NCBI GenBank assembly: GCA_016196295.1 | Contig: JACPYA010000010.1 | Location: 1-33,851 of the forward strand | DNA length: 33,851 bases | DNA from: Candidatus Peregrinibacteria bacterium | GTDB lineage: Bacteria > Patescibacteriota > Gracilibacteria > Peribacterales > Peribacteraceae | Direction: 5' to 3' | Shown here: one piece after another, positions 17,297-32,490 of the stretch | Numbering within the stretch: the first letter of the stretch is position 1 | How the letters are laid out: the number at the start of each line of letters is the position of its first letter | Translations under genes and position numbers: made by a program | The notes under the pieces: model-generated | Seen by the model: the letters and a program-made list of their open reading frames with translations, nothing else | Told to the model about the DNA's origin: nothing | Database searches by the model: none

Positions 17297-17986
17297 ATGC
17301 AGCCAGTCATCCCAGACATCGGGACACTCACGGGAGGAGCCAATCCCATTCACGTGCTTCTGGCGCTCCTCGGGAGTCTCGCGCTCTCACTCATCATCGC
17401 GTATGTCTACAAATCCACGCACCGGGGACTCAGCTATTCGCAGTCCTTTCAGTTCTCGCTGGTGCTCCTTTCGATGCTCGGCGCTTCGGTGATGGTCGTC
17501 GCCAGCAACAACCTGCTCGCCGCGGTCGGCATCCTGGGCGCATTCTCGCTGATCCGGTTCCGCACGGCGGTCAAAGACCCGAAAGACATGGCGTACATCC
17601 TCTTCGTGCTCGTCGTCGGCCTTTCGATGGGCGCGCAGATGTATTTGGTCGGCATCGTGACGACACTGATCGTCTGCGTCGTGATCCTCGCGCTTACGTG
17701 GATGAACTTCGGCATGACTTCCAAGCACGAGTCGATCATCCGGCTCATGTGCAAGGGGGAGAAAGATTCCGCCGTGAACACCGCCAATTACGAAGTCCTT
17801 CTCGGCAAGATGGCAGAGAATTTCCGCCTGCTCTCCGCGCACGCGCACGGCGACCGGATGGAACTGACGTACGGGGTGCGCCCGCGCAGAGGTTCCACGT
17901 CCCTCGCGCTTCTGGAAGCGATCCGCAAAGAGAAGGGCGTCGAAGACGCGGAATTGTTTGATGCGAAGCATCAGGTGGAATTTTAG
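17297..17986 (+). CDS. DUF4956 membrane protein, partner of VTC polyphosphate polymerase
   Basis: 229 residues with about four membrane helices (roughly 17-38, 53-72, 72-90, 98-136), then a soluble C-terminal domain. The signature GAFSLIRFRTAVKDPKDMAYIL (81-102), with conserved R-F-R-T and K-D-P-x-D, is characteristic of DUF4956. That family is frequently encoded next to VTC-domain proteins. Its molecular role is not established. A channel, transporter or membrane anchor for the polymerase product is an inference from co-occurrence. Here it closes the CotH-VTC-DUF4956 cassette and is followed by a 36-bp palindromic terminator-like sequence. Confidence 0.82.
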   Translation: MQPVIPDIGTLTGGANPIHVLLALLGSLALSLIIAYVYKSTHRGLSYSQSFQFSLVLLSMLGASVMVVASNNLLAAVGILGAFSLIRFRTAVKDPKDMAYILFVLVVGLSMGAQMYLVGIVTTLIVCVVILALTWMNFGMTSKHESIIRLMCKGEKDSAVNTANYEVLLGKMAENFRLLSAHAHGDRMELTYGVRPRRGSTSLALLEAIRKEKGVEDAELFDAKHQVEF

Positions 17987-17994
17987 TTTTTCAG

Positions 17995-18030
17995 AAAACG
18001 TAGGGCCGAAATATTTCGGCCCTACGTTTT
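17995..18030. terminator. Perfect 36-bp palindrome, likely bidirectional terminator
   Basis: AAAACGTAGGGCCGAAAT followed by its exact reverse complement, ending in TTTT on both strands. It lies between the convergent ends of DUF4956 (17986) and the TviB-like gene (18040), so it can serve both. The central 28 bp are identical to the core at 30006-30043. Confidence 0.8.
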
Positions 18031-18039
18031 ATAAATGTT

Positions 18040-19302
18040 TTATAGAGCCCGATATGTTCGTCCCGTTTTTTCAATCTCCTTTCCATCGAGGAGGGATTTC
18101 AGGTCGTAGACCACGCCGTCCTTCTTCACACTCTTTAAGAAATCCTTCAGCGGTTTTCCGATGTACTCTTTGTGCGGAACGAGGAGCACGAGCGCATCGT
18201 AGGGTTGGCTATCCAGCACACCTGGCGTCATCCCGCGGGATTCGATCTCGTCCGGGGCAACGTGCGGATCGTGTACTTCCACGCTGAAACCGAGGGCTGT
18301 GAGGGCAGAGACGACTTCCGCCGCTTTACTGTTTCGGGTGTCGGGGATGTTTTCTTTAAAGGTAAGACCGAGGACGAGAATTCTTGAAGATCTTTCTCGA
18401 TTCGAGAGCATCTCTGCCACTTCAGCTGCCACATAGGTACTCATCCCGTCATTGAGCGCGCGACCCGCGGTGATGACGTGCGTTTTCATGCCGAGCTGCT
18501 CCGCTTTTTCGACGAGATAGTAGGGATCGACGCCGATGCAATGCCCGCCAACGAGACCGGGCTTGAAGGGGAGGAAATTCCACTTCGTCCCGGCGGCCTC
18601 AAGGACCTCCTTCGTCGGGATGCCGATGCGATTGCAGAGGAGCGCGATCTCATTCACGAAGGCGATGTTCAAATCTCGCTGTGCGTTCTCGATCGCCTTC
18701 GCCATCTCCGCGACTTTCAAGGATGACGCGCGGTGGATGCCCGCCTTCACGACCGATCCGTACAAATCGCAGAGGATGTCCGTGGTTTTTTCGTCCTGCC
18801 CCGCGACAACCTTCACGATTTTATCGACGGTGTGCTGCTTGTCACCGGGGTTGATGCGCTCCGGGCTGTACCCGAGCATGAAATCCTTCCCACACACGAG
18901 GCCGGATGCCTTCTCCAAGATCGGTCCGCAGATGTCCTCCGTGACGCCCGGGTAGACCGTCGATTCATACACGATGATCATTCCTTTCTTCAGGTGCTCA
19001 CCAACCGTCTGCGTCGCGGCCTCCACGAGCGAGAGGTCGGGCTTGTTCGCCGCATCCACGGGAGTCGGGATCGCAAGCACAATGACCTCGGCGCGCTCCA
19101 GGATGCTGGGGTCATCACTATAGGTGATGCGCGCCTCCTTCATCTGTGCGTCGGAGAGCTCGCCCGTGCGGTCGGTGCCGCTCTTCAGCTCCTCGATGCG
19201 CCTGGCATTGATGTCGTAGCCGATCGTCTCATGCCCGACCTTGGCAAAGGCGTGTGCGAGAGGCAGGCCGACGTACCCGAGACCGACGATTGCTACCTTC
19301 AT
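18040..19302 (-). CDS. UDP-N-acetylhexosamine 6-dehydrogenase, TviB/WbpO-like
   Basis: The 420-residue nucleotide-sugar dehydrogenase has NAD motif VGLGYVGLPLAHAF (6-19), VYESTVYPGVTED (111-123), LGYSPERINPGDK (143-155) and catalytic Cys255 in GLVGGHCIGVDPYYL (249-263). The SPERINPGD and GGHCIGVDPYYL motifs are those of TviB/WbpO, which oxidise UDP-GlcNAc or UDP-GalNAc to the uronic acid for Vi-type and O-antigen polysaccharides. The product would be a UDP-HexNAcA precursor. It is transcribed divergently from gmd, with facing G-rich and C-rich repeats in the 127-bp gap. A TATACT box lies 9 nt before the ATG and there is no SD. Confidence 0.9.
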   Translation of the reverse strand: MKVAIVGLGYVGLPLAHAFAKVGHETIGYDINARRIEELKSGTDRTGELSDAQMKEARITYSDDPSILERAEVIVLAIPTPVDAANKPDLSLVEAATQTVGEHLKKGMIIVYESTVYPGVTEDICGPILEKASGLVCGKDFMLGYSPERINPGDKQHTVDKIVKVVAGQDEKTTDILCDLYGSVVKAGIHRASSLKVAEMAKAIENAQRDLNIAFVNEIALLCNRIGIPTKEVLEAAGTKWNFLPFKPGLVGGHCIGVDPYYLVEKAEQLGMKTHVITAGRALNDGMSTYVAAEVAEMLSNRERSSRILVLGLTFKENIPDTRNSKAAEVVSALTALGFSVEVHDPHVAPDEIESRGMTPGVLDSQPYDALVLLVPHKEYIGKPLKDFLKSVKKDGVVYDLKSLLDGKEIEKTGRTYRAL

Positions 19303-19311
19303 GGGAGCTTC

Positions 19312-19317
19312 AGTATA
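19312..19317 (-). promoter_or_regulatory. -10-like box of the tviB-like gene
   Basis: On the minus strand TATACT lies 9 nt before the ATG at 19302. It directly abuts the G-rich repeat arm that starts at 19317. Confidence 0.5.
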
Positions 19318-19400
19318 GGGATAGGGCTGGGGCTAGGGCTAGGGACAGACACGGGAATGCGCTTCATCGAAATCCTAGCCCAAGCCCTAACCCTAGCCCT
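19317..19400. repeat. Inverted G-tract repeat with two facing G-quadruplex-type motifs
   Basis: The left arm (19318-19344, plus strand) has five G3-G4 runs separated by 2-3 nt (GGGATAGGG-CT-GGGG and so on). The right arm (19379-19399) has four C3 runs with spacers AAG, TAA and TAG, which is a G-quadruplex motif on the minus strand. The arms are approximately complementary, so a cruciform or hairpin is also possible. The element fills the divergent promoter region between the tviB-like gene and gmd. Confidence 0.7.
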
Positions 19401-19416
19401 CTTCTCAGTCCTCCTC

Positions 19417-21621: not shown

Positions 21622-22695
21622 ATGAAGATTCGGACACTCGCTCCGTGGGGATATATCGCTCTCTTGATGGTTGTCACGGGCATCAGTCTCTTTTCCTCCA
21701 CGCCGCGACCACTCGACGATCATTTTTTCTATCAGCGATTCGTCGAGGCTCTGGCACGAGGCGATCTCGATCTCTCGATCCCCGGGTTTCATGGCGCAGA
21801 CCTCTTCGCGGTGCCGCTCTACTGGATGACGCAGTCACCGATTGCGCAAATCTATGCTCAGATGGTCCTCGCCTGTCTGATTCCCCTCGCGGGGTTCCTC
21901 GCAGGCCGTGCCCTCTTTAAATCCGTTGCCGCGGGCATCCTCCTTTCGTCCATCCTCGCGATGATGCCCTTCATCTCCTTCGTCTCGCTGCGCGGCTGGA
22001 CAGGGCCGGGCTATTTCGTCCTCATGCTCCTCACGCTCTGGCTGGGGTCACGCGGATCGCTCTGGACGGTGCTCACGTTCGGCCTCGCTATCCTCACGAA
22101 GCCGTTTGCAATCGGGCTTCTGCCTCTTCTGCTCGTCATCGCTCCTCAGAAACAGTCACTCTGGATCCGCTACCGTCACCTCCTCGGAGCGGCTGTCCTT
22201 GTTGCCTTCTATCTTGGGATTCAATATGTCCAAGCCGGACGGATTTTCGTCGGCGCACACAGTGAGACGACCGTTACCGGCATCTGGCAGGATCCGTATC
22301 GCATACTCCTCAATCTCGCCCATGCGGTGCAGATTCTTTTCTCCGTGCACAATTATTACTATCCGGATCCCGCGCTTACCGGGCCGGGCAACCTGATGCA
22401 CACAAGCCCCGTGTTGATCTTCTTGGGATTATTTTGGTTATTTTCTCCGACGGGGAAAGGACTGAGGACAGAGGACCTGGGGAAAAAATCCCTCAGTCCT
22501 CAGTCCTATTTCCTAAGTCCTCGTGGGGCGATCCTCATCGGCGCCCTGCTTGTTTTCATCCTGAATGCCCTCCTCGATCACATGGACTTCTTCCTGGTAC
22601 CTGCGGTGGTAGATGCCTGCTTTATCATCTTCTGCCTCGTTTCCTTGCCGAGATTGCGGTCAATGTGGCAACATACGATTTTCGCACACAGATGA
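21622..22695 (+). CDS. Multi-spanning membrane protein, GT-C-like; function unknown
   Basis: 357 residues with an N-terminal helix (about 8-26), a loop containing RPLDDHFFYQRF, and then about seven to eight further hydrophobic helices. An acidic pair in the first extracytoplasmic loop (Asp-Asp near residue 32) followed by a polytopic body resembles GT-C glycosyltransferases that use polyprenyl-phosphate sugars, but I do not recognise a specific family. Residues about 279-301 (GLRTEDLGKKS...LSPRG) lie in a loop between two helices and are encoded by an in-frame inverted tandem repeat (22456-22522). The repeat appears to be an insertion. It is followed after about 115 nt by gtrA on the same strand. 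Confidence 0.7.
   Translation: MKIRTLAPWGYIALLMVVTGISLFSSTPRPLDDHFFYQRFVEALARGDLDLSIPGFHGADLFAVPLYWMTQSPIAQIYAQMVLACLIPLAGFLAGRALFKSVAAGILLSSILAMMPFISFVSLRGWTGPGYFVLMLLTLWLGSRGSLWTVLTFGLAILTKPFAIGLLPLLLVIAPQKQSLWIRYRHLLGAAVLVAFYLGIQYVQAGRIFVGAHSETTVTGIWQDPYRILLNLAHAVQILFSVHNYYYPDPALTGPGNLMHTSPVLIFLGLFWLFSPTGKGLRTEDLGKKSLSPQSYFLSPRGAILIGALLVFILNALLDHMDFFLVPAVVDACFIIFCLVSLPRLRSMWQHTIFAHR
22456..22522 (+). repeat. In-frame inverted tandem repeat (GGACTGAGGAC family), copy 1
   Basis: The left arm carries repeats of GGACTGAGGACAGAGGAC, then a short A-rich loop, then CCTCAGTCCTCAGTCC and further degenerate units. It is translated in frame within the 21622 gene as GLRTEDLG...LSPQSYFLSP. A related element encoding a similar peptide sits in the gene at 23339. 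Confidence 0.8.
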
Positions 22696-23338: not shown

Positions 23339-25036
23339 ATGAAAACCGCAATTATCGCCGGTGCCGGTCCTGCGGGCCTTACGGCGGCCTACGAGCTTCT
23401 CAAGCGCACGGACATCAAGCCCGTGGTCTTCGAGGCGACGGATGCCATCGGCGGCATCGCGCAGACCTTCAATTACAAAGGTAACCGCATCGACATCGGC
23501 GGGCACCGCTTCTTTTCCAAGAGCGAGCGTGTGATGGACTGGTGGTTCAACATTCTCCCGCGGCAAGGCGCTCCGGCTGCGGATACGGTCGAGAAGCAGC
23601 ATGAAATCGAATATGCCGTCGAAGCAGTGATTGAATATTTATGTCCAGAGTGCATCGACGAAGGACTTAGGACACAGGACGTAGGACAGAGGAATGCTGA
23701 TTTTCCTAAGTCCCAATTCCTAAGTCCCAATTCCTCTATAAAAACAATCAATAAACAGGCACCCGATCCGGAGAAAGACGATCTCGTCATGCTCCAGCGC
23801 CCGCGACTCAGCCGCATCTTCTATCGCAAGCATTTCTTCCCGTACCCCATCGGCATCACGTTCACGGTCGCGAAACGCCTGGGATTCTTCAACACGTTCC
23901 TGATCGGACTCAGCTACCTCTGGCGGCAGATGCGTCCCCTCAAAGATGAAACGTACCTCGACGCGTTCTACCGCAATCGTTTCGGGGACCGTCTCTACCG
24001 CACGTTCTTCGAGGCCTACACGGAGAAAGTGTGGGGGGTTCCGTGCAGCGCCATTCGGGCAGATTGGGGCGCGCAGCGCGTGAAGGGGCTCTCGCTGAAG
24101 CGCGCGGTGGCGCACGCGGTGAAAGACCTGCTCAGTTCCGACTTCAAGAAGGCGCAAGCGGAGCGCGAGACCAGCCTCATCACGCGCTTCTTCTACCCGA
24201 AGTTCGGTCCCGGGCAGATGTGGGAGACCGTGACGAAACATGTGAGAGCCTGCGGGGGCGAAGTGCGCATGAAGCGGCGCATCAGCGGGGTGCATCTGCA
24301 GGGGAACGAAGTGATTGCGGTGACGGTCGAGAACGTTGAGACGGGCAAAACAGAGCGCATGCCATGCGATTACTTCTTCTCGACGATGCCGATCAAACAC
24401 CTCGTCGGGATGACGACGCCGCATCCTTCCGCGAAGGTCGTGGAGGTCGCCGAGGGGCTCCAGTACCGCGACTTCCTGACTGTCGGGCTGCTGCTTCGCA
24501 AGCTCCATGTGCAGGAAAAAGGAAAAAAGCCCCAGGTCGATGTGCCGGATAACTGGATTTACATCCAGGAAGGCCGCGTGCGCGTGGGCCGCGTGCAGAT
24601 TTTCAACAACTGGAGCCCCTACATGGTGGCGGATCGAAAAAATACGATTTGGATCGGCCTCGAGTACTTCGTGAACGAGGGAGGGGACCTGTGGGTGATG
24701 CCGGACTGGGACCTGATCGCGCTCGGGATCCGCGAGATGGAACAGATCGGCTTTCTGAACAAAGAAGATGTCCTTGATGCCTGTGTGCTGCGCATGCCCA
24801 AGGCCTACCCCGCCTACATCGGCAGCTACGACCAGCTCCACGTCGTGCGCGACTACGTGAATACGATTCCGAATTTGTTCCTGATCGGCCGAAACGGCAT
24901 GCATCGCTACAACAACCAAGATCACAGCATGCTCGCGGCCATGACCGCGGTCGATAACATCCTCGCGGGGCAGAGGGACAAATCAAATCTGTGGGACATC
25001 AACCTTGATATGGTCTACCACGAGGAGAAGAAGTAA
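23339..25036 (+). CDS. FAD/NAD(P)-binding oxidoreductase, amine-oxidase/UDP-galactopyranose-mutase-like
   Basis: The 565-residue protein has an N-terminal ADP-binding motif [14 protein letters not shown] (8-21) with the acidic FEATDAIGG following, and [16 protein letters not shown] (about 50-65), the second flavin-contact motif of UGM/protoporphyrinogen-oxidase-like proteins. The C-terminal flavin loop is [20 protein letters not shown]. These proteins are common in polysaccharide loci, often near gtrA and glycosyltransferases, but their reaction is mostly unknown and UGM activity cannot be assumed. Residues about 108-134 (GLRTQDVGQ...SQFLSPNSS) are encoded by an inserted inverted tandem repeat, without frameshift. 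The ORF is otherwise intact. Confidence 0.8.
23661..23739 (+). repeat. In-frame inverted tandem repeat (GGACTTAGGAC family), copy 2
   Basis: The left arm has repeats AAGGACTTAGGAC, ACAGGAC, GTAGGACAGAGG. The right arm has two units of CCTAAGTCCCAATT. The arms are imperfectly complementary around GAATGCTGATTTT. The element is translated inside the FAD oxidoreductase as a peptide similar to that of copy 1 at 22456-22522. Confidence 0.8.
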
Positions 25037-26283: not shown

Positions 26284-26367
26284 AGCTGGTAGCTTGTAGC
26301 TAGTAGCTTGTAGGAAAACGGAAAGGAGCGCAAACCTAGAAGCTACTTCCTACCAGCTACAAGCTAG
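26284..26367. repeat. Inverted tandem repeat (AGCTTGTAGC family) in the epimerase-GT2 divergent gap
   Basis: The left arm (26284-26314) has three units like AGCTGGTAGCTTGTAGC. The right arm (26337-26367) has the inverse, with AGCTACTTCCTACC and AGCTACAAGCTAG. The arms are separated by about 22 nt. The right arm ends 1 nt before the GT2 start codon at 26369, so it is part of that gene's leader or promoter. Confidence 0.75.
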
Positions 26368-31467: not shown

Positions 31468-32424
31468 GTGAAGAAGATCCTCGTAACCGGCTCGATCGCA
31501 TACGATGTGCTTTTGAACTACGACGGTTCATTCACCGATGCCATCGATCCCAAAGATCTCGAGCATCTTTCTGTCTCGTTTTTTAGTCCTCACTACGCCA
31601 AACATCATGGGGGAACCGGAGCGAATATCGCGTGGAACTTAAGATTGCTGGGGACGGATCCCTTGCTCATCGGCACGGTCGGTCATGATGGAGGCTCATA
31701 CATAGCCCTCCTCGAAGAACGGGGGATCGATACCAAACAGATCGAGGTCTTGAAAGATCATGTCACTGCGACGGCCATCATCGGGACCGACACTGCCGAG
31801 CGGCAGATCGCATTCTTCCATCCCGGCGCGGATGCGCACGGTCACTGGCCGGATCTCCAAGACGATCGTGACGATCTTTCATACGCCGTCGTGGGGCCGC
31901 GCAATGCGAAACTGATGCTCCAGGCGATGCGCTGGTGCCGCGATGCCAAAGTGCCCTGCCTCTTCGACCCCGGGCAGCTCGTGATCGGCCTCAGCAAAGA
32001 CGAACTGCTTTCCTCCATCAGAGGCAGCGCCGGCGTGATCGCCAATGCTTACGAGTGGAGTCTGCTCTCCGAAAAGATCGGCGCCTCAGTGGATGGGGTG
32101 TTGAAGATGGCGCCGTTTCTGATCGTCACACATGGTGAAGCAGGTCTCACGATCTTTGCGAAGAAATCTGCTACAGCTGTCCGCGCCTGCAGGCCCGATC
32201 ATCTGGTGAATCCGACCGGCGCGGGCGATGCACTGCGCGCGGGATTGCTCACGGGACTCAGCGCGGGGTGGGAGCTCCCGACTGCCGCGATGCTGGGGGC
32301 ATCCCTTGCTTCGTTCGTCGTCGAACAAGAAGGACCACTTATTGATCATGTAGACATAGAAGAGATATTGCAGAGAGCGGAGGCAACCTACGGGAAAGCA
32401 TTGCCGGCGCCTCCATACATTTGA
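31468..32424 (+). CDS. PfkB-family carbohydrate kinase, adenosine-kinase-like
   Basis: 318 residues from GTG 31468, giving the family N-terminus (M)KKILVTGSIAYDVLLNYDG. The PfkB substrate motif is GGTGANIAWNL (48-58) and the ATP/anion-hole motif is NPTGAGDALRAGLL (248-261) with catalytic Asp254. Asn248 replaces the usual Asp of the 'DT-GAGD' signature, a variant known in adenosine-kinase-like members. The SIAYD start and FSPHYAKHHGGTGANIAW region fit archaeal/bacterial nucleoside kinases of this family. The next gene is ahcY, which releases adenosine from SAH, so phosphorylating adenosine is the most sensible role. Ribokinase-type activity remains possible. Confidence 0.82.
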   Translation: MKKILVTGSIAYDVLLNYDGSFTDAIDPKDLEHLSVSFFSPHYAKHHGGTGANIAWNLRLLGTDPLLIGTVGHDGGSYIALLEERGIDTKQIEVLKDHVTATAIIGTDTAERQIAFFHPGADAHGHWPDLQDDRDDLSYAVVGPRNAKLMLQAMRWCRDAKVPCLFDPGQLVIGLSKDELLSSIRGSAGVIANAYEWSLLSEKIGASVDGVLKMAPFLIVTHGEAGLTIFAKKSATAVRACRPDHLVNPTGAGDALRAGLLTGLSAGWELPTAAMLGASLASFVVEQEGPLIDHVDIEEILQRAEATYGKALPAPPYI

Positions 32425-32430
32425 ACATGG

Positions 32431-32490
32431 AGAGCGGCCATTCTTGGCCGCGGTTTATGATCTTAGTCCGCGCCCAAGAATGGGCGCTCT
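32431..32490. repeat. Pair of inverted REP-like hairpins
   Basis: Two small hairpins, GCGGCCA-TTCT-TGGCCGC (32434-32451) and GCGCCCA-AGAA-TGGGCGC (32470-32487), are themselves near-exact inverses of each other over 23 nt (32431-32453 against 32468-32490). The unit is BIME-like and sits between the kinase and ahcY. A T-run at 32503-32508 follows, so it may attenuate or terminate transcription. Confidence 0.7.

Follow-up and report, generated by a model that had tools for sequence, protein, structure and literature searches.

The window analysed here is a stretch of 33,851 nucleotides from Candidatus Peregrinibacteria bacterium (Peribacteraceae, a CPR lineage), and it constitutes a whole contig (C51) of a 1.13-Mb genome in 84 contigs, referred to below as G000. 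Within it, a gene for a membrane protein carries, in frame, a hairpin whose arms consist of tandem seven-base units (heptads). We describe this hairpin and its counterparts in related genomes, and compare them with the intervening sequences (IVSs) of 23S rRNA and other known repeats. Genomes, contigs and loci are cited by G, C and L numbers where they have to be told apart.

The locus comprises:
21622..22695, + strand: host gene, encoding a membrane protein of 357 residues; the insert corresponds to residues about 279-301; no Pfam or NCBIfam match
22456..22522, + strand: heptad-armed hairpin, in frame in the membrane-protein gene, with arms at 22458-22474 and 22491-22507 (sequence, arm pairing, DNA and RNA folds)

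A heptad hairpin within a membrane-protein gene

The sequence of the hairpin reads AAAGGACTGAGGACAGAGGACC...CCTCAGTCCTCAGTCCTATTTCCTAAGTCCTC. Three tandem AGGACNN units (AGGACTG AGGACAG AGGACCT) are followed by a complementary heptad arm, and the two 17-nt arms are 94% complementary. The DNA fold has a z-score of -3.1; the RNA fold of 22450-22530 reaches -40.9 kcal/mol (z = -4.7), a stability equalled by 0 of 200 shuffled sequences, and the hairpin thus exceeds chance. The repeat is translated as GLRTEDLGKKSLSPQSYFLSP, and the open reading frame (ORF) 21622-22695 remains free of stops throughout.

A first-pass annotation, made from the sequence alone, had described an inverted tandem repeat inserted in frame into a loop between two membrane helices, and each of these elements is borne out. 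A protein search recovers the gene in 12 of 59 genomes including its own, i.e. in 11 of 58 relatives, and the alignment reveals that in 11 of 11 homologues the loop is about 15 residues shorter and the residues of the insert are absent. In the AlphaFold model, residues 278-295 have a predicted local distance difference test score (pLDDT) below 50 and are flanked by helices 262-274 and 300-317. Since the net gain of about 15 residues is smaller than the repeat span of about 22, part of the original loop was probably replaced by the repeat. The gene also carries an in-frame deletion downstream of the insert, where about 53 residues present in aligned relatives are missing after the DHMD motif; the function of the protein may therefore be relaxed.

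Further copies in the window and the genome

The first-pass annotation identified this one hairpin correctly and missed three more of the same kind in the window, one of them in a second gene:
23339..25036, + strand: NAD(P)/FAD-dependent oxidoreductase (PRK07208-type), host gene of the second copy; the loop is a recurrent insertion site in Peribacteraceae
23662..23739, + strand: second in-frame copy, four AGGACNN units, then CCTAAGTCCCAATT twice (arm pairing and folds)
19312..19403, no strand assigned: intergenic hairpin with GGGCTAG-type arms, the arm type of the four-helix-bundle loci L364, L382 and L391 (fold)
26284..26366, no strand assigned: intergenic hairpin with AGCTNGT-type arms, resembling those of the four-helix-bundle locus L367 (fold)

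The hairpin scan of the window used a threshold of 15, and both coding copies score below 15 there. The closest named records of the oxidoreductase are from Candidatus Peribacteraceae and Peregrinibacteria. Two simple palindromes between genes, at 17961-18050 and 32420-32490, are probably terminators.

The repeat is not confined to the window. Its core pattern, AGGACNNAGGACNNAGGA, occurs 15 times at eight places in the 1.13-Mb genome, compared with 0 occurrences of the reversed control; if two mismatches are allowed, the numbers become 48 versus 29 and the separation is no longer good. Four of the eight places lie inside genes, namely the membrane-protein gene, the oxidoreductase gene, guaA on C50 and fmt on C6. 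Copies with different arms coexist in one genome, and the idea of one repeat family across the genome was therefore rejected. Arrays with a period (lag) of seven number 14 in 214 kb of G000, 9 in 400 kb of G027 and 24 in 400 kb of G003, and 3 in 400 kb of G051, which belongs to another family; Markov sequences yielded 0, 0, 0 and 1, respectively. The G000 sample consisted of the window and 20 of the contigs C2-C23, from which the known copy holders C6 and C19 had been excluded.

Repeat arms flank genes for four-helix-bundle proteins

The same arms occur beside genes of the PF05635 four-helix-bundle family. A PF05635 gene lies between oppositely oriented AGGAC arms on contig C34 of G000 and in G027, and in G033 AGGAC arms adjoin one; the proteins encoded at these three loci are mutual best matches and group together in the protein tree described below. 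Other palindromes make up an in-frame insert, about 58 codons long, in the AGGAC-armed ORF of G000 (L039, 1128-1721).

PF05635 matches were found in 43 of the 59 genomes, with 21 copies each in G000 and G033, and in 0 of 14 control genomes. Complementary flanking arms with a score of at least 14 are present at 33 of 40 Patescibacteria PF05635 loci (taken from G000, 13/21; G033, 12/21; G030, 6/12; G027, 4/4; G003, 1/1; G043, 1/11; G039, 1/7; G053, 1/9; and G051, 1/3). The same score is reached by 27 of 1560 mismatched pairs, 10 of 4000 random spacings in N-free DNA and 1 of 781 short ORFs. The best arm lag is 7 in 17 of 37 loci and 8-9 in another 17, and the 5' arm is purine-rich in 34 of the 37. 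Beyond this group, 28 of 35 genomes from other groups have a PF05635 match, and arms are found at 19 of the 30 loci listed from other phyla versus 4 of 870 mismatched pairs; the purine bias is weaker there (16 of the 22 rows scoring 12 or more). The element class can be described as two inverted arms of short tandem repeats, mostly of seven and sometimes of eight or nine bases, with or without a PF05635/TIGR02436 gene between them.

Arm sequences are private to a locus or subfamily and track the subfamily of the four-helix-bundle protein. The nearest protein relatives have a common arm type across loci and genomes, and loci that share a junction may differ in both protein and arms. Over 59 of the 70 loci (arm score at least 12, six shared-junction pairs excluded), protein and arm similarity are correlated with a Mantel r of 0.249 (0/5000 permutations). 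The correlation amounts to 0.372 for Patescibacteria loci of different genomes (0/2000), 0.216 within other phyla (10/2000) and 0.163 between the two sets (1/2000); with composition controlled, pairs from different genomes give 0.174 (0/5000), compared with 0.045 for scrambled arms. In a protein tree that rests on 106 columns and leaves many forks unresolved, six loci with GGGCTAG/GATTGGA arms group at 100/99, and the AGGAC pair L369 and L371 groups at 99/86 and with L378 at 89/69. Conservation of arms by locus was rejected at L358/L375 and L359/L387: the members of each pair share a junction, but both their proteins and their arms differ.

Comparison of flanking genes reveals three states of a junction across genera: empty, with a bare hairpin, or with a hairpin plus gene. 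The L382 junction has gene and hairpin in G033, bare hairpins in G000 and G067, and neither in G003, while the L374 junction has gene and hairpin in G003 and bare hairpins in G027 and G067. Exact element ends are not definable at these junctions because the sequences are too diverged.

Protein loops with recurrent in-frame repeats

In the oxidoreductase, AGGAC arrays occupy the same loop position in G030 and G027 as in G000, representing three genera. Other genera have different repeats at this loop, likewise in frame (GAGTTAC, ATTACGG-type, GGGTTA, GACCAGC and C-rich palindromes), and several relatives have a short loop without repeats. Overall, 16 of 34 distinct Peribacteraceae loops reach at least 9 on the lag-7 score or at least 10 on the hairpin score, compared with 0.3% and 0.9% of 1261 windows in the remainder of the oxidoreductase genes. 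The 34 loops exclude 7 of 41 rows without an anchor and include L068 and L202 (perhaps also L062), which look mis-anchored, the earlier anchor match having been taken. The predicted model of the oxidoreductase is poor (pLDDT 55) and was not used. A repeat reading CCCTCACCCC...CCTCTCCC...GGGAGAGGGG...GGTGAGGG lies in frame in oxidoreductase loops of two genera (L054 and L055), and a sequence resembling it is intergenic in G027 (L271, about 14.5 kb).

The GMP synthetase gene guaA offers a second example. Its loop after GVRILC holds AGGACNN units in G000 and, as judged by eye, GTGAAAA in G023, AAAATGC in G011, GGAAAGT in G015 and CCAATTC in G003. The G000 gene (L040, 3464-5455, on C50) has two additional insertions that are absent from relatives, at residues about 221-233 and 563-605, both of which carry similar SSASGGLRPAG peptides.

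Within genes the repeat keeps the reading frame and contains no stop; in those copies that were compared with relatives, it occupies a loop that varies among them. Among eight intergenic AGGAC hairpins, only 3 of 48 frames are free of stops; the open coding copies are therefore probably survivors of selection.

Comparison with known elements and alternative explanations

The nearest relative of the repeat is the IVS type of element. In Coxiella burnetii, the 23S rRNA IVS has 28-bp terminal inverted repeats and an S23p ORF, is excised by RNase III, and includes tandem GACAGAT heptamers whose number varies between strains; it has been termed a selfish element (PMC4990558). The window copies share the terminal inverted arms that form a stem, as judged from pairing and folds. 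The class as a whole shares with the IVS tandem heptamers by the ORF, an ORF of PF05635 type in the loop and the fact that the ORF is expendable. The arm sequence here differs from element to element, the hairpin lies in a protein gene rather than in 23S rRNA (class copies are also found between genes), and RNA excision is described for the IVS. Since the hairpin has no ORF in its loop, whereas arms enclose a PF05635 ORF at 33 of 40 loci, we call it IVS-like rather than an IVS. Short IVSs without an ORF exist in Salmonella and other bacteria.

Heptameric repeats have been described in Xanthomonas and Nostoc, where seven-base tandem units often form convergent inverted pairs between genes (in Xanthomonas, 70 and 75 such pairs), are generally not found with mobile elements and are under-represented in coding regions (PMC4692102). 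Unlike the present analysis, that account, in the part available, draws no link to PF05635. PF05635 proteins are related to Avd of diversity-generating retroelements, with which they share a homologous four-helix-bundle fold (PMC10053308); here the match to the Avd model NF033474 is weak and below the cut-off (E 1.8e-5). No reverse transcriptase was noticed in the flanks of the PF05635 loci, which were viewed without a systematic search. The genome has one reverse-transcriptase gene, on another contig than the window (C6:12349-12960, L401); inspection by eye places an Avd-like ORF immediately upstream of it on the opposite strand, and the pair is therefore perhaps a diversity-generating retroelement.

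The first-pass annotation had likened the insert to Rickettsia palindromic elements (RPEs), and neither result that it named as a refutation was obtained, the repeat being present elsewhere in the genome and missing from the homologues. The likeness holds for behaviour: a dispersed palindromic repeat sits in frame in unrelated genes, is absent from homologues and occupies a loop between helices; three copies of the genome encode similar peptides, GLRTEDIG among them. It fails for identity. RPEs measure about 150 bp and have family sequences and a conserved peptide (PMC10969869, in the part available, where PF05635 genes are not mentioned), whereas the present copies span about 65-80 bp, consist of degenerate heptads without a fixed sequence, vary in their arms by locus and share these arms with the flanks of PF05635 genes. 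Moreover, unrelated repeats encode unrelated peptides in the same loop, and the shared peptide may only reflect the stop-free phase, because so few frames of the intergenic copies are open. The RPE type was accordingly rejected on size and sequence, and an RPE or a direct homologue is extremely improbable. Mobilisation of the hairpins as single-stranded DNA by a Y1 transposase, as in a repetitive extragenic palindromic (REP)/RAYT-like element, would be in keeping with the nine Y1_Tnp matches in the genome and with the correlation between Y1 and PF05635 counts over the 59 genomes (Spearman 0.47). However, G027 has 24 core pattern matches and no Y1_Tnp match, 16 of the 43 genomes with PF05635 lack a Y1 match, and no heptad arms were seen by eye beside four of the nine Y1 genes. 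A Y1 transposase is thus not required in G027, which weakens this explanation and makes it very unlikely.

A local origin without any movement, in which tandem heptads arise by slippage and one arm is copied from its partner by template switching within the hairpin, deserves more weight. It accounts for a loop that carries different repeats from genus to genus and for arms that are imperfect and unequal in unit number, and IVS heptamer copy number does vary among Coxiella strains (PMC4990558). It does not readily explain the occurrence of the same heptad at eight places in one genome and at the same loop in three genera, nor why arm type follows four-helix-bundle subfamily across loci and genomes; on balance we regard it as unlikely.

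Several observations weigh against an IVS-like mobile element. Arm scores fall below 14 at 7 of the 40 Patescibacteria loci and 11 of the 30 loci from other phyla, the covariation of protein and arms is modest, and the PF05635 loci read from the own genome are 13 of its 21. The only AGGAC-armed PF05635 gene among those read from this genome may, with its foreign insert of about 58 codons, be dead. For the fmt and guaA arrays, each a single arm, no partner arm is evident, and the fmt array gives no evident net gain of residues relative to solved structures; the loop inserts of L048, L054 and L055 are C-rich-first palindromes rather than heptads of the polarity seen in the membrane-protein gene. 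Finally, no movement, element ends or target duplication were seen among the relatives, which are at least a genus apart, so some 'insertions' could be local growth.

Implications for Peribacteraceae and beyond

Taken together, the hairpin likely belongs to the class of heptad hairpins associated with four-helix-bundle proteins, and it is best explained, with good probability, as an ORF-less copy of a selfish, IVS-like hairpin element, kept in genes only where frame, stops and loop position permit. The four-helix-bundle protein would bind the repeat arms of its own element, either as folded RNA or as single-stranded DNA, and help copies to spread; bare hairpins would spread in trans, and copies landing in genes would survive only when in frame, open and in a tolerant loop. 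That this protein drives mobility is a possibility we hold with considerable doubt.

A wider proposal, which we put forward tentatively, is that S23/IVP proteins together with their private heptad arms constitute a single class of mobile elements, widespread across bacterial phyla, for which the 23S rRNA IVS is only the best-known landing site. The protein would recognise, and perhaps template or extend, its own arm units, and bare hairpins spreading in trans could settle again and again in the same loops of proteins and be retained there as permanent in-frame peptides, also in essential enzymes, GMP synthetase for example. In the open-access literature, as far as its texts were available, we found no paper linking heptameric repeats to S23/IVP four-helix-bundle genes, and the available part of an account of five Peribacteria genomes does not mention such repeats (PMC4736985). 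The finding joins two puzzles that are usually handled separately, namely where heptameric repeats come from and what S23/IVP four-helix-bundle genes do. S23p would acquire a function that can be tested if it and the arms recognise each other. The Peribacteraceae loops also provide a clear case of repeat DNA being repeatedly made into protein loops in streamlined genomes.
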